Source: Rhabdaerophilum sp. SD176
Lineage (GTDB): Bacteria; Pseudomonadota; Alphaproteobacteria; Rhizobiales; Beijerinckiaceae
DNA: 64,000 nucleotides
Assembly (NCBI RefSeq): GCF_030143245.1
Contig: NZ_JARJNS010000006.1
Location: 124,001 to 188,000 of the forward strand
Direction: 5' to 3'
Part shown: positions 34,697 through 43,683 of the stretch, piece by piece
How positions within the stretch are numbered: the first letter of the stretch is position 1
How the letters are laid out: each line of letters starts with the position of its first letter
The notes under the pieces: model-generated
The model's database searches: none
Told to the model about the DNA's origin: nothing
Seen by the model: only the letters and a program-made list of their open reading frames with translations
Made by a program: the position numbers and the translations under genes

Positions 34697-35476
34697 TCAG
34701 GGCCGCACGCCTGGTGCATCCATCGCCATGTCGGCCGCGCGTTCCTTCAGGTATATCTCGAGATCGACCCATTCCGGCGCGCCGGCCGGAAACGGTTCGG
34801 CGCGGATGCCGGTCATGCAGTTACGGAACCGGCGCTGCAACGAGCCGATCGCCTGCCATTCCATCCGGAACAGGGGATAGCCCGTCGGATGCGCCTGCGG
34901 AATACGCGTGCCGCCCAGGGATCGGCCCCAGTTCTGGCTGTGGCATTGCGCGCAGGACAGGTCGAGTTGGCCGAAGCGCTGGCGATAGAGCTTCTCCCCG
35001 CGCAGAACTGCATCCTCCAGCCCGCGTGCCCGGGGCGAGGCCAACGGCATGCCCCGCGATTGCAGGGAGAGATAAGCCTCGAGGGCCAGCAGGGCGGCGC
35101 TTTCCCGCGCCGAAGGGGCCACGGCCTGCCGCCCGGTCTGGCAGGCCTGGATCTGCCCCGGCAGGTCAAACGCCCGTCCTGTCGATGCGTCGCGGGCGGG
35201 ATACCGGGCTGCCACGCCCTTCATGCTCTCGGCCGCATCGCCATGGCAGGACTGGCAGGAAGGGCGCCCTTCCCCCGGCGCGGCTTTCCACAGGGCTTCC
35301 CCTTCTTTGACGGCAAGCATGGCCGGGTTCGCGAAGTCATCCCGCTGCATGGCCTGAGCCTCGGCGCCCATCATGTCATGGCCGGACAAGCGCTGGTTGG
35401 CGGGGATGTCGTCCGCCAGGGCATGGCCAAGCAGGAGGATAGCCAGCGCAAATGCGCGCCCCGCCCGGCCTGTCAC
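34697..35476 (-). CDS. soxA: SoxA, diheme c-type cytochrome of the Sox system
   Basis: This 259-residue protein starts at GTG (35476), overlapping the soxZ stop as GTGA. The signal peptide ends at ALA (19-21). Two haem-binding motifs are seen: CQSCH (74-78) and CAQCH (175-179). Cys112 (QACQTGR) and Cys220 (RNCMTGIRAEPFP) occupy the positions of the distal haem ligands, the latter being the active-site cysteine. SoxXA attaches sulfur compounds to SoxYZ in the periplasm. It is the last gene of the operon; no soxB follows. An apparent 390-residue frame upstream is a shadow of soxZ and soxY. Confidence 0.93.
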   Translation of the reverse strand: MTGRAGRAFALAILLLGHALADDIPANQRLSGHDMMGAEAQAMQRDDFANPAMLAVKEGEALWKAAPGEGRPSCQSCHGDAAESMKGVAARYPARDASTGRAFDLPGQIQACQTGRQAVAPSARESAALLALEAYLSLQSRGMPLASPRARGLEDAVLRGEKLYRQRFGQLDLSCAQCHSQNWGRSLGGTRIPQAHPTGYPLFRMEWQAIGSLQRRFRNCMTGIRAEPFPAGAPEWVDLEIYLKERAADMAMDAPGVRP

Positions 35477-35802
35477 GAAGCCGCGACCTGCAGCATGGCC
35501 TGCTCGCGATGAAGGAATCCATTGTCGCCGCGCCAGACGAATTCCAGCGGTCCGCTCCGGGCTGCGAGGACCGGGAAGGACAGGAAGGGATTGGCCGCAA
35601 TGGCGGGGTGGAAATTGCAGGAGAAGACGATCTCGCCCGCATAGCGGCAGGAGAACTGCCGGATGATGTTCCGGGGGATCTCGCCGCCAGTGTCGGTGCG
35701 ACGGAAGCCGGTTTCCATCGGGTGCGAGATCATCGCCTTGATCATGACCACATCCCCGGCCCGGATCGTAGTACGCGGCAGCAGGATCATTGCCGTGGCC
35801 AT
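35473..35802 (-). CDS. soxZ: SoxZ, sulfur-carrier partner protein
   Basis: This 109-residue protein has the family pattern PRTTIRAGDVVMIKAMISHPMETGFRRTDTGGEIPRNIIRQFSCRYAGEIVFSCNFHPAIAANPFLSFPVLA and a final GPLEFVWRGDNG. SoxZ has no signal peptide and is co-exported with SoxY as a heterodimer. Its Shine-Dalgarno (GGAGGA) lies within the last codons of soxY, and its stop overlaps the soxA start. It would scaffold the SoxY arm that carries the sulfur substrate. Confidence 0.95.
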   Translation of the reverse strand: MATAMILLPRTTIRAGDVVMIKAMISHPMETGFRRTDTGGEIPRNIIRQFSCRYAGEIVFSCNFHPAIAANPFLSFPVLAARSGPLEFVWRGDNGFLHREQAMLQVAAS

Positions 35803-35804
35803 GG

Positions 35805-36281
35805 CTATTCCTCCGTGCAGGCGGCGATAGTGACGATGACCTCCCGCCGGTCAGCCCAGAAGGAGCCATCGGTCAGACGTGCAACAGCGGTTACGTGCTG
35901 CGTCGTGGCCAGCCGCATCCGGCAAACGACATGGGCCTTGCCCATATGCGGCGTCAGGCGGAAGACTGCGACATCGGGCAACGGGTTCTTGTCGGTGAAG
36001 AGCGCAATCTCGCGCACATGATCGTCCGGTCTCATCGGATGGTCGACCAGCACCTCGAAGGAAACCGCGTTGCCGTTCTCGACCAGCGGCGCGATGTCGA
36101 GCGTGACCTTGCCGGCGCGAGGCTCGATGCCTCCGGTGAATTCACGGATGGCGCGGACCATATCATCCGGCTCCGCCCGGGCAGGCCGCAGCGTCACAAG
36201 ACCGATGGCCGCCATGCCGCCGGCCAGCACAGCCCGCCGGCTGGTCTCACTCGCGAAGGGTGGCAAGAAACGCCGTGACAT
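35805..36281 (-). CDS. soxY: SoxY-like sulfur carrier with non-canonical C-terminal arm
   Basis: This 158-residue protein has a Tat signal (SETSRRAVLAGGMAA, mature part after ARA near 36). It has the SoxY core IREFTGGIEPRAGKVTLDIAPLVENGNAVSFEVLVDHPM and VRMFTDKNP-like IALFTDKNPLPDVAVFRLTPHMGKA. The family normally ends in a mobile GGCGG arm whose cysteine holds the substrate; here the end reads TIAACTEE, keeping Cys155 but losing the flanking glycines and adding an acidic tail. Its start overlaps the end of soxX by 35 bases. The tail codons ACG GAG GAA form the soxZ ribosome site. Confidence 0.88.
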   Translation of the reverse strand: MSRRFLPPFASETSRRAVLAGGMAAIGLVTLRPARAEPDDMVRAIREFTGGIEPRAGKVTLDIAPLVENGNAVSFEVLVDHPMRPDDHVREIALFTDKNPLPDVAVFRLTPHMGKAHVVCRMRLATTQHVTAVARLTDGSFWADRREVIVTIAACTEE

Positions 36282-36705
36282 CCTCGATCTCCTCGGCTGT
36301 GAGGATGGTGCGGCCCTTGAAGGCGACGGCCATCCTGGACTGTCCCTCCGCCCGGAAATAGGGCGGCATGATCGTTTCGCCATTGAAGAGCCGGCTGTCG
36401 ATCAACCGGGCCCGCAATTGTGCCGGCGTCCAGCGGCTGCCGGCACCGGCCAGCGAGGGCGCGAGATCGCCCTGGAAACGCACCTCCGGAAAAGGGCCGG
36501 AATGACAGAGCAGGCACAGACCCTTGCGTCGATCCGTGACGATCCGGCGGCCATTCTCGGCGTCCGGCGGACGCGAGACAGCCAGCGGCCCCGCCTCAGG
36601 CACGTCTTGCTGTGCCCTTGCCGGCATGGCGAGGGCCACGAGGAAGGCAGCAATGGCGAGCCAAAGCTCCCTCCCGGTTCCGGCATGTGCGGCCCGCCCG
36701 CTCAC
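36247..36705 (-). CDS. soxX: SoxX, monohaem cytochrome c
   Basis: This 152-residue protein starts at GTG (36705) overlapping the stop of the molybdenum hydroxylase gene as GTGA. A signal peptide precedes QQDVPEAG. There is one haem site CLLCH (64-68); Met113 in GETIMPPYF is the axial ligand, as in SoxX. LTAEEIEDVTAFLATLRE closes the protein. SoxX accepts electrons within the SoxXA complex. Here it could also take electrons from the upstream periplasmic oxidoreductase; that is inference from coupling of the genes. Confidence 0.93.
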   Translation of the reverse strand: MSGRAAHAGTGRELWLAIAAFLVALAMPARAQQDVPEAGPLAVSRPPDAENGRRIVTDRRKGLCLLCHSGPFPEVRFQGDLAPSLAGAGSRWTPAQLRARLIDSRLFNGETIMPPYFRAEGQSRMAVAFKGRTILTAEEIEDVTAFLATLRE

Positions 36706-38873
36706 GCGCGGCGGAGATCCGCGTTCTTGAGCGGCAGCGAGCGGACCCGCTTGCCGGTGGCGGCGAAGATCGCGTTCAGCACGGCCGGTGCCGCAACCGC
36801 GATGGTCGGCTCGCCGACGCCACCCCAGAAATCACCGGAGGGAACGAGGATGCTCTCGACTTTCGGCATCTCGTTGATCCGCATGGCGGGATAGGTATCG
36901 AAGTTCTCCTCGACGATCCGGCCGTTCTTCACCGTGCATTCCTGATGGAAGGCCGCCGAGAGGCCATAGACGAAGGACCCCTCGACCTGCGCCGCCACCT
37001 GGTCCGGATTGACCACATGGCCCGGATTGGTGGCCGCGACGATGCGGTGGACCTTGATCTCGCCGGCATTCGACACCGAAACCTCGGCCGCCGCCGCGAC
37101 ATAGGAGCCAAAGCCCATGATCTGGGCGAGGCCTTTCGCCGTGCCCGGCGCCGAGGGCGAACCCCAGCCGATGCCTTTGGCGACGGCCTCCAGCACGGCG
37201 AGATGCCTCGGCGTGTTCTTCATCATCCGCCGGCGGAATTCGAGCGGGTCGACGCCCGCAGCATGCGCCAGCTCATCCATGAAGCATTCGACATAGATGG
37301 CGTTCTGGTTGAGGTTGACGCCGCGCCAGAAGCCCGGCGGGACATGCGGGTTGCGCATGGCATGGTCGATCAGCAGGTTCGGGATGCCATAGCCGAACGG
37401 GCCTTCCTGCCCGCCCGGATTCAGGCCCTGGAAAACAAACGGATCGCGGCCGTTCTGCAAGCCCTGCGGGTTGACCCCCGACAGGATCGACTGGCCGGAA
37501 ATCCGCATGTGGAGGCCGGTCAGGTTCCCGTCCTTGTCGAGACCGCCGACCAACCGTGCCATGGTGATAGGATGGTAGGTGCCCTGCAGCATGTCCTCCT
37601 CGCGGCTCCAGAGCAGCTTGACCGGCGCGCCGGGCATCTGCTTCGCGATCAAGACGGCCTGCGTGACGTAATCCGAGCGGCCGCGCCGGCCGAAACCGCC
37701 GCCGAGATGGACCTTGTAGACATCGCATTTCGCCGCCGGGTGGCCGGAAGCCTCGATGGCGGCGGCAAGCGCCGATTCCCCGTTCTGGGTGGGGCACCAG
37801 ACCTCGCATTTCTCCGGGGTCCAGAGCGCCGTGGCATTCATCGGCTCCATGCAGGCATGGTTCTGGAACGGGTAGGAATAGGTCGCTTCGACACGCTTGG
37901 CCGCCGAGGCGATCGCGCCCTTCGCATCGCCCGCCTTGTTGCCCTCGAACGCCTGCTCGGCATCGAGCCCCTCGCGCAGGGTGGCGGCGATGGTCTCGGA
38001 CGAGACCGAGGCATGCGGGCCGTTATCCCAGGTAATGGGCAGCGCATCGAGCGCGGTCTTGGCCTGCCACCAATGATCGGCAATGACGGCGACCGTGCGC
38101 CTGTCGACCTGCACGACCTTCTTCACGCCCGGCATGCCAGTGACCTTGGCCGCATCGAAACTGGCCAGGGTGCCGCCGAAAACCGGGCAGGCCTTGATCG
38201 CGGCATTGAGCATGCCCGGCAGCCGGATATCGGCGCCATAGACCTGCTTGCCGTTGAGCTTGTCGACCGTATCGAGGCGTTTCACCGACTTGCCGGCAAT
38301 GGTCCATTCGCTGGCTGGCTTGAGCTTGACCTCTTTCGGCACGTCAAGCTTGGCCGCCGCGGCTGCAACCTTGCCGTAAGTGACGGTACGACCGGTGGGC
38401 GTATGGGTGATGACGCTCTTCGCCGCGCGGCATTCGCCTTCGGGCACGCCCCATTCCTTCGCCGCCGCCTGGACCAGCATGATCCGCGCCGCTGCACCGC
38501 CTTCGCGCACATATTGGTGGCTATCGCGGATCCCGCGTGAGCCACCGGTCGCGAAATTGCGCCAGACGCGGTTGCGGCGCAGGTTCTCGCCCGGGGTCGG
38601 GTATTCCCAGCTCACCTTCGACCAATCGGCCTCGAGTTCCTCGGCCACAAGCTGGGCAAGGCCCGTCAGCGTGCCCTGCCCCATCTCCGAGCGGGCAATG
38701 CGCACAACAATCCGGTCATCCGGGTGGATCACAACCCAGGCATTGACTTCCGGCGTTGCGCCCTGGGCCTGCGCCTCGGTGAAGGGGATGGAGAAGCCCA
38801 GCGTGAAGGCACCAACCGCCGCAGCGGAGCCCTTCAGGAGCGAGCGGCGGGAAAGAACAGCATTGTCAGCCAT
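36702..38873 (-). CDS. Molybdopterin-dependent oxidoreductase large subunit (IorB/aldehyde oxidase type)
   Basis: This 723-residue Tat-exported enzyme (SRRSLLKGSAAAVGAFTLGFSIPF) belongs to the xanthine dehydrogenase family, isoquinoline 1-oxidoreductase/aldehyde dehydrogenase group. It has IARSEMGQGTLTGLAQLVAEELE, VHLGGGFGRRGRSDYVTQAVLIA, PGFWRGVNLNQNAIYVECFMDELAHAAGVDPLEFRRRMM and the catalytic-glutamate region GVGEPTIAVAAPAVLNAI. It hydroxylates an N-heterocycle or oxidises an aldehyde at a molybdenum cytosine dinucleotide centre, passing electrons to the [2Fe-2S] subunit and usually to a c-type cytochrome. In this operon the only cytochromes are SoxX and SoxA. Substrate unknown. Confidence 0.93.
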   Translation of the reverse strand: MADNAVLSRRSLLKGSAAAVGAFTLGFSIPFTEAQAQGATPEVNAWVVIHPDDRIVVRIARSEMGQGTLTGLAQLVAEELEADWSKVSWEYPTPGENLRRNRVWRNFATGGSRGIRDSHQYVREGGAAARIMLVQAAAKEWGVPEGECRAAKSVITHTPTGRTVTYGKVAAAAAKLDVPKEVKLKPASEWTIAGKSVKRLDTVDKLNGKQVYGADIRLPGMLNAAIKACPVFGGTLASFDAAKVTGMPGVKKVVQVDRRTVAVIADHWWQAKTALDALPITWDNGPHASVSSETIAATLREGLDAEQAFEGNKAGDAKGAIASAAKRVEATYSYPFQNHACMEPMNATALWTPEKCEVWCPTQNGESALAAAIEASGHPAAKCDVYKVHLGGGFGRRGRSDYVTQAVLIAKQMPGAPVKLLWSREEDMLQGTYHPITMARLVGGLDKDGNLTGLHMRISGQSILSGVNPQGLQNGRDPFVFQGLNPGGQEGPFGYGIPNLLIDHAMRNPHVPPGFWRGVNLNQNAIYVECFMDELAHAAGVDPLEFRRRMMKNTPRHLAVLEAVAKGIGWGSPSAPGTAKGLAQIMGFGSYVAAAAEVSVSNAGEIKVHRIVAATNPGHVVNPDQVAAQVEGSFVYGLSAAFHQECTVKNGRIVEENFDTYPAMRINEMPKVESILVPSGDFWGGVGEPTIAVAAPAVLNAIFAATGKRVRSLPLKNADLRRA

Positions 38874-38886
38874 GATCGCCTCTCCC

Positions 38887-39336
38887 TCAGATGCCGGCGG
38901 CGAGCTTGATGCCCGCCCGCACGCGATTATAGGTGCCGCAGCGGCAGATATTCGTCATCGCCTCGTCGATATCGGCATCGGTGGGCTTCGGCTTCTTCGC
39001 GAGAAGCGCGGCCGCCGCCATGATCATGCCGGACTGGCAATAGCCGCATTGCGGCACGTCGAGCTGTAGCCAGGCTTTCTGGATCGGGTGGCTGACATCG
39101 GGCGAAAGGCCCTCGATCGTGACAACCTTCTGATTGGCATTGAGCGAACCCAGCGTGACCGAGCAGGCGCGGACGGGCTCACCATCGATATGCACGGTGC
39201 AGGCGCCGCATTGGGCGATGCCGCACCCATACTTCGTTCCGGTCAGCCCGGCCTGTTCGCGCAGGGCCCAAAGCAGCGGCGTATCCGGATGCGCATCGAT
39301 CTCGACGACGCGTCCGTTGACATTCAAGCTGGCCAT
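38887..39336 (-). CDS. (2Fe-2S) small subunit of the molybdenum hydroxylase (IorA type)
   Basis: This 149-residue protein has two [2Fe-2S] clusters: plant-type ferredoxin cysteines 38, 43, 46 and 58 ([18 protein letters not shown]...ACS) and the C-terminal four-helix cluster cysteines 97, 100, 131 and 133 ([22 protein letters not shown]). It transfers electrons from the molybdenum site of its partner encoded 13 bases downstream. The ATG follows GGGGAGG. No signal peptide; it is exported bound to the large subunit. First gene of the six-gene ior-sox operon. Confidence 0.95.
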
Positions 39337-39457: not shown

Positions 39458-40243
39458 TCAACCGTTTCCGAGATCGCGGCGCAAGGTCGGCAGGCCGATC
39501 CCGGCCGCATCGAAACCGCCATCCACGGCGAGCACCTGGCCCGTGATGTAGCTCGAACCCGGCGAGCAGAGATAGAAGATCGCATCCGCCAGCTCCTCGG
39601 GCAGCCCGTAGCGGTTCAACGGCATGGCATCGTGGTAATCCTTCCGGATTTCCGGCGAATGGACCTTCTTCGCCATGGCTGTGTCGACAGGGCCGGGCGC
39701 TACGGCATTGACGCGGATACCATAGCTTGCCAGTTCGACCGCCAGCTGCCGCGTGAGATGGGCAAGGCCGGCTTTCGACGTGCCATAGGCCACGCGCAGG
39801 GTGGAGGCCCGCAGCCCCGAGATCGAGGTGATGTTGACGATCGCGCCGCCGGTCTCGCGCATCAGCGGGAACAGGGCCTGCGTCATGATGAAGGGCCCGG
39901 TCAGATTGACCGCCATGATCTCGTTCCAGACCTCGAGCGGGGTGTCGATCGCCATGCCGAAATGCGCGATGCCGGCATTGTTGACCAGCGCATCAATGCG
40001 GCCGAACCGGGCCCGCATCGCTTCGGCGGCTTCCGCCGCATCGGCTGGTTTCGAGACATCAAGCGGCAGTTCCATGACGCGGTCAGGCCGATCAAGGGCC
40101 TTTACGGTGGCCGCCAGCGTCTCATGGTTGCTGTCGAGCATGGCCACGGCCCAGCCTTCGGCAAGAAAGCGTTCGGCGGCGGCAAGACCGATGCCACGAG
40201 CTGCTCCGGTGACGAGCACGGTTTTCAAGGGGGTCGGTTTCAT
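39458..40243 (-). CDS. Short-chain dehydrogenase/reductase
   Basis: This SDR of about 261 residues has the NAD(P)-binding TGAARGIGLAAAERF, NNAG (LVNNAGIAHFG), catalytic Ser in ITSISGLRAS, YGTSKAGLAHLTR with Tyr and Lys, and a terminal ITGQVLAVDGGF. It oxidises or reduces a hydroxyl/keto group. Two ATGs compete (40249 and 40243); GAGG sits seven bases before the second. It lies directly after the DUF296 gene and an acyl-CoA synthetase, suggesting a beta-oxidation-like pathway for an unusual acid. Confidence 0.92.
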   Translation of the reverse strand: MKPTPLKTVLVTGAARGIGLAAAERFLAEGWAVAMLDSNHETLAATVKALDRPDRVMELPLDVSKPADAAEAAEAMRARFGRIDALVNNAGIAHFGMAIDTPLEVWNEIMAVNLTGPFIMTQALFPLMRETGGAIVNITSISGLRASTLRVAYGTSKAGLAHLTRQLAVELASYGIRVNAVAPGPVDTAMAKKVHSPEIRKDYHDAMPLNRYGLPEELADAIFYLCSPGSSYITGQVLAVDGGFDAAGIGLPTLRRDLGNG

Positions 40244-40252
40244 GGTCATTCC

Positions 40253-41116
40253 TCAGGCTTCTGCCACGATCAGTTCGAAGGTCATGAGTATCGGGTTGGC
40301 ACCCCGCTTCAGGCGCCCTTCGGCGAGGCCGCCGGTATAGTCCACAAGGCCAATATCGATCTCGGCGCGCAGTCCCGGGCCATCCGGGCGGACAAGCGCC
40401 CGGGTGATGAAGACCTCGGTAGCAAAAGGCTCTGTCTCCAGCCCGTGCTCGAAGGAAGAGCCGATCAGCGAGCCGACGCCGCCATGGATCGACGCGGCAG
40501 CGAGGCCCTGCTCCCGCACCAGCGTTTCGAGCGCGGCATGGAAACACTGGTTCGGCCGCAGCCGCACCGCGAAAGCGCGGCGGTCGGTCCGGGTGCCGGC
40601 CGGCGCGGCGGGAACCGGGCCGAACAGCTTGAAATTCGTCTCGGGGTCCGGGTTGCCTTCGAAGCGCGCGCCGTCGATTCCGAAAGCCTCGACCTCCGCA
40701 TCCTCGGCGAGGACGGCCTCCTCCGGCAGGATATGCCCGCCCGTGCGGTGCCCGTCCGCCTCGCGCCAAAGGGCGTGGCAATGGAAGAAGGGCTGGCCAT
40801 CGCGCCAGCCGAAGGTCAGCGCCCCGGCCTCGAGCCGGGAGATGCCGGCAGGCCGGAAGGTCCCGGAATAGAAGGCGGCGTTCTTCCCGTCGACGCTCAG
40901 GGCCGGCATGACATAGGCGATAGGTCCCAAAGCCAGCGCACCGAGAGTGAGCGTGCCGCTGGCAAAGCCTTCCGCCGCGAAACCCTGCCGTGTGGCCTCG
41001 AGCAGCGGCGTCCCGGCCTTCAGCACCATGCGGAAGGCGCGGCCCCTGCCCTCGACCGCAAGAATGCGCGGCGATTGCGGCGGACCCGGCTGCGCGATGA
41101 AGGCGGGGCGGGCCAT
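40253..41116 (-). CDS. DUF296/PPC-domain protein, apparently tandem
   Basis: This 287-residue protein seems to hold two related halves. Each has the PPC-like order of a small strand-rich core with Gly-rich turns (LGALALGPIAYVMPALSVDG..FHCHALWREADGHRTGGHILPEEAVLAEDAEVEAFG in the first; SIHGGVGSLIGSSFEHG..RAEIDIGLVDYTGGLAEGRLKRGANP in the second). Plant PPC proteins bind AT-rich DNA, but bacterial ones are trimeric proteins of unknown, possibly metabolic, function. It sits one base after the acyl-CoA synthetase stop and just before an SDR, so a role in the same pathway is likely. Confidence 0.7.
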   Translation of the reverse strand: MARPAFIAQPGPPQSPRILAVEGRGRAFRMVLKAGTPLLEATRQGFAAEGFASGTLTLGALALGPIAYVMPALSVDGKNAAFYSGTFRPAGISRLEAGALTFGWRDGQPFFHCHALWREADGHRTGGHILPEEAVLAEDAEVEAFGIDGARFEGNPDPETNFKLFGPVPAAPAGTRTDRRAFAVRLRPNQCFHAALETLVREQGLAAASIHGGVGSLIGSSFEHGLETEPFATEVFITRALVRPDGPGLRAEIDIGLVDYTGGLAEGRLKRGANPILMTFELIVAEA

Positions 41117-41117
41117 G

Positions 41118-42746
41118 TCAGGCCAACCCGTCTTCGGTGATGAGGCCGCGGGCGATCAATTCGTCCTTCACAAGGCGCTTGGGCACCTTGCCATAGCCGG
41201 ATTTCGGCAGCGCCTCCCAGAAGAAGAAGCGCTTGGGCATCTTGTAGCGCGGGATCTTCGGGCTCAGAAAGGCTGCAAGGGTGGCCTCGTCCACCGGCTC
41301 CCGCGCCACGCAGACCGCGACACCGACCTCGCCCCAGAGCTTGTCGGGCACGCCCAGAACCGCCACTTCGACAATGGCCGGATGGGTGAGGATCTTCTCC
41401 TCGACCTCGCGCGGATAGATGTTCGAGCCGCCGGAAATATACATGTCCGAGGCCCGGCCGGTAATGTAGACGAAGCCCTGCTCGTCCATATGGCCGAGAT
41501 CGCCTGTCCGGAACCAGCCATTGCGGAAGGCTTTCGCATTGGCCTCCGGGTTGTTGTAGTAGCCCGCGAAGACGGCCGGCCCGATGACGCAGATCTCGCC
41601 CGTCTCGAAAGGCCTCAGCTCCTCGCCGGCATCGTTCTGGATCGAGACCTGCATCCCCGTCCGCTCGAAGCCGCAGGTTCCGAACTTTGTATTGGCCTGA
41701 TCCTCCGGGTCGTGATGGGCGGGCGGAAGCACGGTGATGTTGCCGGTCACCTCGCCGAGGCCGAAATATTGCGTGATAACCTTGCCGAGCTTCTTCAGCG
41801 CGAATTTCTGGTCCTCGCGATACATCGGCGCGCCGGCATAGATGACCGAGCGCAGCGAGGAATGATCAAACCGGTCGACGGACGGATGCTCGACCAGCAG
41901 CTTCAGGATGGTCGGCACCGTGAACATGTTCGTCACGCGGTAGTGCTCGACGAGGCGCCAGGCTTCCTCGACATCGAATTTCTCGGTCGGGAGGAGGATG
42001 GTCGGCGCTCCGCGTGCGACGATGTTAAGTTGGTGGACGCCCGCGCCATGGCTGAGCGGCGCGACGACCAGCGAGGCATCCGCTTCGGTCGTGCCTGGCA
42101 GCAGATCACAAAGGTGGTTGGTGATAACGAAGGCCATCTGGCCATGCGTCAGTACCGCCGCCTTGGAGCGGCCCGTCGTGCCGGAGGTGAAGAAATACCA
42201 GCAGGGATCATCATGCTCGACCGGCACGTCCGGCACGGTCTGGCCGCGGAAGGCATCCATCCGCGCGGAGACATCCGCCTCGCCGAAACTGCCAGGCCTC
42301 GCCTGCTCGTCCATCCGCCAGGTGAATTCGATTCCGGGGACGTTTTTTGCCACGGCCTCGGCATGATCCGGGAAGTCGCCATGGCAGAGAAAGCCCTTCG
42401 CGCCCGAAAAATCGGCGAGATAGATCACCTCTTCCGGCATCAGGCGGAAATTGGTCGGCACCCAGACCGCACCGAGCTTGAAGGCCGCAAAAAGCGAGAA
42501 GAACATCTGTGCGGTGTTCTTCGAATGCACAATCAGCCGGTCACCCTTGCCGAGGCCGCGCGCCTGCAGGGCGCCGGCCAGCGCATTGACCTCTCGCTCG
42601 ATCTCGGCCCAGTTCCAGCTCTGCTCGCCCCAGACGAAGCCCGGCCTCTCGGGAAAGCGACGGGCATTCTGGCGCAGAATATGCGCGAGATTCATCACCC
42701 GGTTCGAGCAGCGGGGCAGACCGCCTTTCGGTCCTTCAGGCATCAT
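41118..42746 (-). CDS. Acyl-CoA synthetase (AMP-forming)
   Basis: This ANL-superfamily ligase of about 540 residues activates a carboxylic acid to its CoA thioester. P-loop YFFTSGTTGRSKAAVLTH, A5-like QYFGLGEVTGN, GYYNNPEANAKAFRNGWFRTGDLG, hinge-region YITGRASDMYISGGSNIYPREVEE and the C-terminal lysine region PKSGYGKVPKRLV are all present. The start is uncertain: ATG 42746 follows GGAG at nine bases, while MNLAHIL at 42695 resembles family N-termini. It heads a three-gene operon and lies 79 bases after the IclR gene. Substrate chain type is not evident. Confidence 0.92.
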   Translation of the reverse strand: MMPEGPKGGLPRCSNRVMNLAHILRQNARRFPERPGFVWGEQSWNWAEIEREVNALAGALQARGLGKGDRLIVHSKNTAQMFFSLFAAFKLGAVWVPTNFRLMPEEVIYLADFSGAKGFLCHGDFPDHAEAVAKNVPGIEFTWRMDEQARPGSFGEADVSARMDAFRGQTVPDVPVEHDDPCWYFFTSGTTGRSKAAVLTHGQMAFVITNHLCDLLPGTTEADASLVVAPLSHGAGVHQLNIVARGAPTILLPTEKFDVEEAWRLVEHYRVTNMFTVPTILKLLVEHPSVDRFDHSSLRSVIYAGAPMYREDQKFALKKLGKVITQYFGLGEVTGNITVLPPAHHDPEDQANTKFGTCGFERTGMQVSIQNDAGEELRPFETGEICVIGPAVFAGYYNNPEANAKAFRNGWFRTGDLGHMDEQGFVYITGRASDMYISGGSNIYPREVEEKILTHPAIVEVAVLGVPDKLWGEVGVAVCVAREPVDEATLAAFLSPKIPRYKMPKRFFFWEALPKSGYGKVPKRLVKDELIARGLITEDGLA

Positions 42747-42825
42747 TTCAGGCACTCCACAATCGTGACTGGATCAGCAAGGGCAGCACGCATGCGAGGT
42801 TTCCGGCTGACGGCACGGTTCTCCC

Positions 42826-43683
42826 TCATGCCATGGTTCTCCTGCGGGGCGGGCTCGTCAGCGGGGTGGGCGGGCCTGGCGCCCGCGCGAGCCGTTGCTC
42901 CACAAGCTGCACCTCCGCAGCGAGAAGCGCGGCCAGTTCGGGCTCGCGGTCCGGCTGCATTCGACTTTCCACAGCAGCAAGGGAGAGGCAGGCCTCGATC
43001 CGGCCCGAGGGGCCGCGAATGGCCATCGCCATCCCCCAGGAGCCGGGAAAGAGAATACCACGGTTGAGGCTATATCTCCGTTCGCGCGTTTCGCGGAGAA
43101 GGTCAGGCAGGAGCGGAACGAGCGGCGGATAGCGCTCTGCCAGCGGCCGCGCATGGCCGGCGAGATAGGCTTCGGCCTCGGCCTCCGGCAGGGCGGCAAG
43201 GATCGCCAGCGGCCCGGCGCCGGCGCCGAGCAGGTGCCTGTCCCCCGCTTTCAGCACATGAGACCGGAGCGGGAACGTTCCATCCTCCCGCGCGAGGCAG
43301 ACCACCTCTTCCCCGTGGCGCACCTGCAGGAACGCCGCGTCACCGGTTCGCTGGGCGAGCCGGGCGACGCTGTCGAGCGCAACGCGATGGATGCCGTAGC
43401 GATCGGCTGCGACCATGCCGAGCAGGTAGATCTCGCGACCGAGGAAATAGAGGCGGGTCGCGGTGTCCTGTACGGCCATCCCCTCTTCCATCAGGGCGAT
43501 AAGCAGGCGACGACAGGTCGGCTTCGAGAGGCCCGACTGGCGGACCAGAGCCGCGAGGGAAGCTCCCTCCGTGCCGGCATCGCCAAGGAGCCGGAGCAGG
43601 CGCAATGTCCGGATCGCGCTCTGGGCCCCGAAGGCTTCGACAGGATCCAAAGCCGTCACGATTCCAGCACCCTGGGTCCACAT
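42826..43683 (-). CDS. IclR-family transcriptional regulator
   Basis: This 285-residue protein has an N-terminal winged helix (AIRTLRLLRLLGDAGTEGASLAALVRQSGLSKPTCRRLLIALMEEGMAV) and a C-terminal effector-binding GAF-like domain (SVARLAQRTGDAAFLQVRHGEEVVCLARE, PLRSHVLKAGDRHLLGAGAGPLAIL). The extended GLSKPTCRRLL recognition helix is typical. It is transcribed towards the acyl-CoA synthetase and away from the SDR at 43881, and probably regulates both using the pathway substrate as inducer. Confidence 0.92.
   Translation of the reverse strand: MWTQGAGIVTALDPVEAFGAQSAIRTLRLLRLLGDAGTEGASLAALVRQSGLSKPTCRRLLIALMEEGMAVQDTATRLYFLGREIYLLGMVAADRYGIHRVALDSVARLAQRTGDAAFLQVRHGEEVVCLAREDGTFPLRSHVLKAGDRHLLGAGAGPLAILAALPEAEAEAYLAGHARPLAERYPPLVPLLPDLLRETRERRYSLNRGILFPGSWGMAMAIRGPSGRIEACLSLAAVESRMQPDREPELAALLAAEVQLVEQRLARAPGPPTPLTSPPRRRTMA

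Follow-up and report, generated by a model that had tools for sequence, protein, structure and literature searches.

A conserved SoxXYZA gene set without nearby soxB, paired with an exported molybdenum hydroxylase in Alphaproteobacteria

Background

The presence of sox genes is often taken as a sign of the capacity for thiosulfate oxidation. A 64,000-nucleotide stretch of the genome of Rhabdaerophilum sp. SD176 (contig NZ_JARJNS010000006.1, positions 124,001 to 188,000; the whole stretch is hereafter the window, and positions are counted within it) raises the question of what such genes might do in an operon with a molybdenum enzyme and apart from soxB. The six genes of this cassette are read on the minus strand, from 39336 to 34697, in the order [2Fe-2S] subunit and molybdenum (Mo) subunit of a hydroxylase, SoxX, SoxY, SoxZ and SoxA, and no gene for SoxB, SoxC or SoxD is found inside the cassette (34697-39336). 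A preceding sequence-only reading of this DNA had described the order as iorA-like, iorB-like, soxX, soxY, soxZ, soxA, without SoxB or SoxCD, and had proposed a distinct system in which SoxXA accepts electrons from the Mo enzyme or SoxYZ carries its substrate or product. Pfam and NCBIfam models bear out the gene order and the lack of SoxB and SoxCD. The set is indeed distinct and conserved without SoxB nearby, but the part assigned to SoxYZ as carrier of the Mo enzyme's substrate was not supported. Our preferred interpretation, to which we assign a probability of roughly 0.42, is a periplasmic oxidation module in which the Mo enzyme would oxidise a small organic compound, whereas SoxXA, SoxYZ and flavocytochrome c sulfide dehydrogenase (FCSD) would deal with its thiol or sulfide.

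A second sox gene set with a conserved order

Contig C18 of the genome that contains the window (G000, 99.29% complete) harbors a canonical sox locus as well, in which SoxA, SoxY with a GGCGG arm, SoxZ, SoxB and SoxC are recognized by family models and the FCSD flavoprotein by a profile; three more haem proteins of this locus are labelled SoxX, SoxD-like and small cytochrome by position and haem motif only. Because the same genome holds a full canonical locus, the window cassette is a second, paralogous sox set. The possibility that the cassette is a random split of a sox locus lying elsewhere in the genome, which the sequence-only reading had named as its refutation, fails because the soxB/soxC locus that does exist on C18 has its own SoxXYZA and because the cassette order is kept in other genomes.

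The conservation of the order was assessed in 103 loci, namely the window, three plasmid records, 19 alphaproteobacterial genome stretches and 80 genome contigs (the 80 highest-ranking among 487 relatives of a SoxY alignment). These loci were selected by SoxY similarity and not by the Mo gene; they are unthinned for close relatives, with many from Bradyrhizobium, and some genomes may be counted twice. The Mo gene lies upstream of soxX in 97 loci. In five of the six exceptions a contig end leaves under 5 kb of sequence before soxY, and the sixth, L050, is a true separation, the Mo gene of its genome (G091) being located on a different contig. The commonest pattern, found in 51 loci, is Fe-S subunit, Mo subunit, cytochrome c, FCSD flavoprotein, SoxX, SoxY, SoxZ, SoxA; 17 loci show the same pattern minus a detected cytochrome, 18, including the window, have neither cytochrome nor FCSD, and the last 17 are cut or variant. 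Altogether, the FCSD flavoprotein is encoded within the cassette in 80 of the 103 loci. No SoxB or SoxC gene was found within 7 kb in any of the loci, although 15 of them are truncated so that under 5 kb remains ahead of soxY. The order recurs in many genera and is more than chance; the gene set is conserved across many soil and plant bacteria.

The SoxY variant of the cassette belongs to the family TIGR04487, whose cut-off is exceeded in 16 genomes from a sample of 289 Alphaproteobacteria and in 23 from a sample of 149 within the taxonomic family of the window; with G000 in both samples, this makes 38 genomes. In the genus of the window, four of six sampled genomes carry the cassette SoxY; among 274 genomes of the class of a Rubrivivax bin, the bin itself is the single carrier. 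SoxB scores above the cut-off in six of the 38 genomes and was not found above it in the other 32, some of which are incomplete (down to about 82%) and one of which, G203, is a single contig with 100% completeness. In a broader set of 63 carriers, some of them below the SoxY cut-off, SoxB is above the cut-off in 28.

Changed substrate-facing sites in SoxY and SoxA

The SoxY of the window is assigned to TIGR04487 ('SoxY-related AACIE arm protein') and falls below the cut-off of the true-SoxY model TIGR04488 (88.3 vs 125). The carrier arm has the form xACx(E/D) in 101 of the 103 loci and GGCGG in none. In SoxA, the six haem and ligand cysteines are retained in all 101 aligned cassette sequences, as are the arginines at positions -4 and -16 relative to the ligand Cys. 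According to the available part of PMC4423706, thiosulfate in TsdA is bound by Arg109, Arg119 and Ser127, next to the ligand Cys123; the Arg119 equivalent and one further Arg are invariant in SoxA, where Lys or Ser stands in place of Arg109. The SoxA and TsdA sites were matched by counting back from the ligand Cys, by sequence only; on this mapping, position -14 of the cassette SoxA is Glu in 97, Asp in three and Thr in one of the 101 sequences, the Thr belonging, by elimination, to L050. A separate script count that required Arg at -4 gave Glu in 100, Asp in four, Thr in one and Ala in one (the truncated L136) of 106 cassette sequences. Among other SoxA proteins, 15 of 17 could be placed and have Lys (six), Arg (four), Ser (three) or Ala (two) at this position, with no acidic residue; one of these, with Ser, is the SoxA from the C18 locus of G000. 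The combination of the xACx(E/D) arm with the SoxA Glu amounts to a simple sequence rule that separates the cassette from canonical Sox. A conserved SoxZ cysteine (99/103) was considered as a further diagnostic mark and rejected since it is also present in other SoxZ proteins, e.g. those of L032, L036 and L212.

With acids in the SoxA site as well as in the SoxY arm, a dianion such as thiosulfate should be disfavoured. Given that both of these substrate-facing sites differ from the canonical ones, thiosulfate seems an unlikely substrate of the cassette.

These features bear on the simplest alternative, namely that the cassette is an ordinary paralogous set for thiosulfate or sulfide oxidation, with the Mo genes as neighbours through co-regulation only. 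SoxX and SoxA do pass the normal family models, SoxZ comes within one bit of its cut-off, operons can hold unrelated genes, and FCSD stands in the canonical locus as well; arguing the other way are the SoxY score below the true-SoxY cut-off, the acid at the SoxA thiosulfate site and the 32 of 38 genomes with no soxB above the cut-off. Furthermore, an excerpt of PMC5748708 reports that Bradyrhizobium diazoefficiens has soxY1 and soxY2 and that only soxY1 is essential for thiosulfate oxidation, which may also count against it. On balance, we consider an ordinary paralogue unlikely.

An exported molybdenum hydroxylase that also occurs without Sox

The Mo subunit has a TAT signal (20.7 vs a cut-off of 16.7) and the Glu of the GVGEP motif, and the eight cysteines of the two [2Fe-2S] clusters in the accompanying Fe-S subunit are retained in 88 of 88 aligned homologues. 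Among solved structures, the closest to the Mo subunit is the membrane-bound aldehyde dehydrogenase of Gluconobacter (8gy3_C; phmmer 3e-78), on which its AlphaFold model (mean pLDDT 82.6) superimposes with a TM score of 0.84. These sequence and model comparisons show the predicted protein to be an exported Mo hydroxylase of the xanthine-oxidase family, of the type of IorB and the aldehyde dehydrogenases of acetic acid bacteria; it reaches no NCBIfam equivalog cut-off. A sulfur-containing aldehyde or heterocycle, as suggested by the sequence-only reading, would be compatible with such an enzyme.

A search profile built from 22 cassette Mo subunits detected the Mo subunit in 22 of the 289 class genomes at 1155-1417 bits, the next tier, two contig-cut cassette genes aside, being at 893. 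In 17 of these 22 genomes, the SoxY variant is encoded close by on the same contig, and in G071 and G093 it is on another contig, with the assembly break inside the cassette. In the family sample, 37 genomes have a Mo match of at least 1150 bits; 26 of these have the SoxY variant nearby, and in the other 11 the fetched stretch contains no cassette gene beyond those for the Fe-S and Mo subunits, which rejects the idea that the Mo subunit is exclusive to Sox cassettes. All these Mo sequences fall within one clade on a well-supported branch, the deepest branches of which carry Sox; the ten thinned Sox-less sequences occupy four places on the drawn tree, three of them forced by well-supported branches (this is a quick tree with 28 forks open). 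We read the Sox-less loci as probable cases in which Sox was lost repeatedly, although the Mo genes may instead have been transferred on their own.

Across 57 cassette Mo sequences, 189 alignment columns are at least 98% conserved; at these columns the Sox-less sequences show 96.6% identity (92.1-99.5% by sequence), compared with 72.8% for four outgroup sequences. The loop that reads WRGVN in the cassette reads WRSVG in three of the four outgroup members. Given that the Mo enzyme persists without Sox and keeps its conserved core, the Sox-less enzymes probably act on a free substrate of the same kind. Hence the proposed role of SoxYZ as carrier of the Mo substrate is disfavoured, and with it a specific version in which the substrate is a protein-bound disulfide on SoxYZ and the Mo enzyme replaces SoxCD. 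That version has its attractions in that SoxCD, too, is a Mo enzyme acting on SoxY-bound sulfur in the established pathway, in the tight linkage of the Mo and SoxXYZA genes and in the proximity of Mo genes to SoxYZ in several more distant arrangements; nevertheless, the ten same-clade enzymes that keep their core without SoxYZ in four places of the tree make it improbable. Three Mo matches contain an in-frame TGA, and selenocysteine was rejected as its meaning; the open frame spans profile positions 2-754 of 757.

The Sox-less loci, together with a reduced cassette in genome G066 (L167, contig 1, 7759-11913; a single contig), also bear on the proposal that SoxXA serves mainly as the periplasmic electron acceptor of the Mo enzyme, with SoxYZ as a passenger or regulator. 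G066 keeps the Fe-S, Mo, SoxX and SoxA genes only, which fits such a role, and IorB-type enzymes are generally known to hand electrons to c-type cytochromes. In contrast, the SoxY cysteine and the catalytic Cys and Arg residues of SoxA are conserved, the SoxA site residues being intact in G066 as well, and many cassettes hold a separate small cytochrome c. Moreover, no c-type cytochrome passing a filter for CxxCH and a signal-like segment was found in the fetched stretch at nine of 13 Sox-less Mo loci, so that the Mo enzyme does not depend on having SoxXA alongside; the multihaem protein next to one Sox-less locus, L199, was set aside as a separate large multihaem protein. The acceptor role, accordingly, appears rather unlikely as the main function of SoxXA. 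The reduced cassette of G066 possibly functions as a free-thiol dehydrogenase or as an electron acceptor.

Another alternative is that SoxXA, SoxYZ and FCSD serve in repair, providing sulfane sulfur to renew the essential sulfido ligand of the exported Mo enzyme. Insertion of this ligand is known as a cytoplasmic process, we know of no precedent for its repair in the periplasm, and many genes would be devoted to a single atom; in its favor, some lineages can do without the Sox genes, which would be acceptable for a repair system. The accessible part of PMC2997495 describes an equatorial sulfur ligand in enzymes of this family and also names XdhC-type chaperones. This explanation strikes us as highly improbable.

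Flavocytochrome c sulfide dehydrogenase accompanies the Sox genes

The flavoprotein of the cassettes matches solved FCSD at 8e-129 and conserves its cysteines. With a profile made from cassette members and a threshold of E <=1e-100, FCSD was counted in 53 of the 289 class genomes, including all 16 above the SoxY cut-off, and in 43 of the 149 family genomes, including all 23 above it; the gene is thus present in 38 of 38 TIGR04487 genomes vs 37/273 and 20/126 of the other genomes in the two samples (the Fisher tests of this association ignore kinship). In the family sample, FCSD is found in one (G391) of 12 genomes that have Mo without Sox, namely the 11 with the Fe-S and Mo genes only plus G396, which is cut by the contig. 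Being present with Sox and nearly absent with Mo alone, FCSD follows Sox rather than Mo. All 17 examined genomes with an FCSD-less cassette carry FCSD elsewhere, eight in unlinked positions and nine close to soxB; G297, in the latter group, carries an additional copy that is not near soxB. Each of the eight unlinked genes is located beside a cytochrome c gene, and the one in G327 also adjoins another SoxYZ. In the FCSD tree, 35 of 37 thinned cassette sequences form one clade (L007 and L052 fall elsewhere), and the eight unlinked sequences, after thinning, lie outside this main clade.

A possible SoxB-independent route for organic sulfur

Built on the observed gene set, the retained catalytic residues, the altered sites and the co-occurrence, the proposed module would start with the oxidation of a free small organic compound by the exported Mo hydroxylase; the substrate class, the order of steps and the electron path are what we infer. 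Since the Mo enzyme and the sulfur submodule share an operon, the thiol or sulfide sulfur may well come from the compound or its product, which would carry a thiol or release hydrosulfide. SoxXA, with its anion site made acidic, might then attach this sulfur, which would not be thiosulfate, by oxidation to the cysteine in the xACx(E/D) arm of the SoxYZ carrier. The sulfane or sulfide would be oxidised by FCSD, whose gene lies in the cassette, at another site or, in the present genome, in the canonical sox locus, with electrons presumably leaving via c-type cytochromes. SoxB would be no part of the module. In the available section of PMC5336275, access to the metals of SoxB is reported to require a SoxY adduct of sufficient length that includes a sulfane atom. 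The more specific formulation, a SoxB-independent Sox-type pathway for organic non-thiosulfate sulfur in which the Mo enzyme opens or oxidises the carbon part and the re-tuned SoxXA and SoxYZ, with FCSD, oxidise the thiol or sulfide, is tentative, with the odds somewhat against it.

Several observations weigh against this module. The acid at position -14 is not needed for pairing with a Mo enzyme: Mo-linked SoxA proteins of a more distant type have Arg (L171) or Ser (L175) there, so that the acid marks this cassette and not all Mo-linked Sox sets; furthermore, the acid denotes a changed site and would say nothing about the ligand. In G091 and G127, the SoxY variant is on another contig with no evident break in the cassette, and in G127 no Sox gene follows the Mo gene on its contig. 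The Mo enzymes that occur without Sox may catalyse a reaction unrelated to sulfur, in which case the pairing would be mere co-regulation, and G066 has SoxXA with no SoxY and no FCSD match in the genome at the thresholds used. The window cassette itself is devoid of FCSD, which G000 encodes only at the canonical locus, and the co-occurrence of FCSD is partly expected, this enzyme being common in sulfur oxidisers and the profile being derived from cassette members. Finally, the flanks outside the core differ by lineage among the 103 loci, and the flanking genes point to no particular substrate.

If the proposal is correct, these bacteria possess an unrecognised periplasmic route of organosulfur oxidation that would extend to many Alphaproteobacteria, including Bradyrhizobium, Methylobacterium, Microvirga, Azospirillum and relatives, and some genomes are over-annotated as thiosulfate oxidisers. 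The Sox-derived set has a Mo partner and is altered at two substrate-facing sites, and in most sampled carriers above the family cut-off it occurs in a genome where no soxB was detected above its cut-off.

Gene boundaries, neighbours and related arrangements

The features of the window cassette are compiled in Table 1. The two GTGA junctions noticed in the sequence-only reading are present: the stop codon of the Mo subunit gene overlaps the GTG start of soxX at 36702-36705, and the stop of soxZ overlaps the start of soxA at 35473-35476. The start of soxA is most likely the GTG at 35476, a longer open reading frame from 35869 being an over-extension; the start of soxY is uncertain, with candidate ATG codons at 36281 and 36383. 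Both haem cysteines of SoxX are present in 102 of 102 aligned homologues.

Table 1. Genes of the cassette in the window, in the order of reading
Feature	Coordinates	Strand	Evidence
[2Fe-2S] subunit of Mo hydroxylase, 149 aa	38887..39336	-	Pfam Fer2 + Fer2_2
Mo (molybdopterin) subunit, xanthine-oxidase family, 723 aa	36702..38873	-	MoCoBD_1/2, TAT signal
SoxX, single-haem c-type cytochrome	36247..36705	-	TIGR04485, 76.6 bits vs cut-off 61
SoxY variant, AACTEE arm	35805..36284	-	TIGR04487, 185.5 vs 172
SoxZ	35473..35802	-	Pfam SoxZ 1.5e-24; TIGR04490, 75.4 vs cut-off 76, just below
SoxA, diheme	34697..35476	-	TIGR04484, 195.6 vs 110; PDB 1h31, 4e-39

Upstream of the cassette, at 39458-43683, the window encodes an SDR, a PCC-domain protein, an AMP-dependent ligase and an IclR-type regulator (the last two labels come from a reading of the open reading frames); these genes were rejected as parts of the operon because L057-L060, the four loci most closely related to the window, show no synteny with them. 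The enamidase-like and reductase neighbours seen in other loci were likewise discarded as cassette components, as they are confined to Bradyrhizobium and one Hyphomicrobiales bin.

More distant arrangements of Mo genes with SoxYZ or SoxA are found in L169 (6918-10921), L171 (23-4341) and L172 (3354-15546), one of them with two tandem Fe-S/Mo pairs, which suggests that this enzyme family has been paired repeatedly with SoxYZ. In L173 (2873-8218) and L174 (7772-12245), genes for SoxYZ with the unusual arms SGCI and GACS lie in the vicinity of an Fe-S/Mo pair of more distant type, and SoxXA gave no match in the fetched stretch. Another SoxXYZA type, in L177, L178 and L179, has a SoxY ending in GACS and an Arg at the thiosulfate-site position of SoxA; FCSD adjoins it in two of the three loci, and no Mo enzyme or SoxB was found in the fetched stretches.

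Comparison with known systems

Neither a description of the cassette nor an experiment on it was found among the literature matches listed, in a search with most subscription journals outside its scope. Like the canonical SoxXYZABCD system of Paracoccus and of contig C18, the cassette encodes a SoxXA with Cys-ligated haem and a SoxYZ with a C-terminal Cys, with FCSD nearby; unlike that system, it is without SoxB and SoxCD, has xACx(E/D) in place of GGCGG and an acidic SoxA site, and contains a xanthine-oxidase-family Mo enzyme in the operon. With IorAB and the aldehyde dehydrogenase 8gy3 it shares the fold of an exported Mo hydroxylase with a separate [2Fe-2S] subunit, but no multihaem subunit is among the conserved cassette genes and the partner is SoxXYZA instead. 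The accessible part of PMC11237559 describes divergent SoxY proteins beside carbon enzymes, with sequences devoid of the GGC motif deleted, so that the cassette SoxY falls outside that survey. The SoxYZ-S2/S4 groups of that excerpt, which probably correspond to TIGR04557, resemble the cassette in placing Sox carriers beside a carbon-oxidising periplasmic enzyme; in the cassette, by contrast, soxY and soxZ are separate, SoxXA is present, and a Mo enzyme takes the place of a quinoprotein alcohol or methanol dehydrogenase. The family TIGR04487 names one protein of this set, to which the present analysis adds the linkage to the Mo enzyme and FCSD, the change in SoxA and the frequent absence of SoxB.

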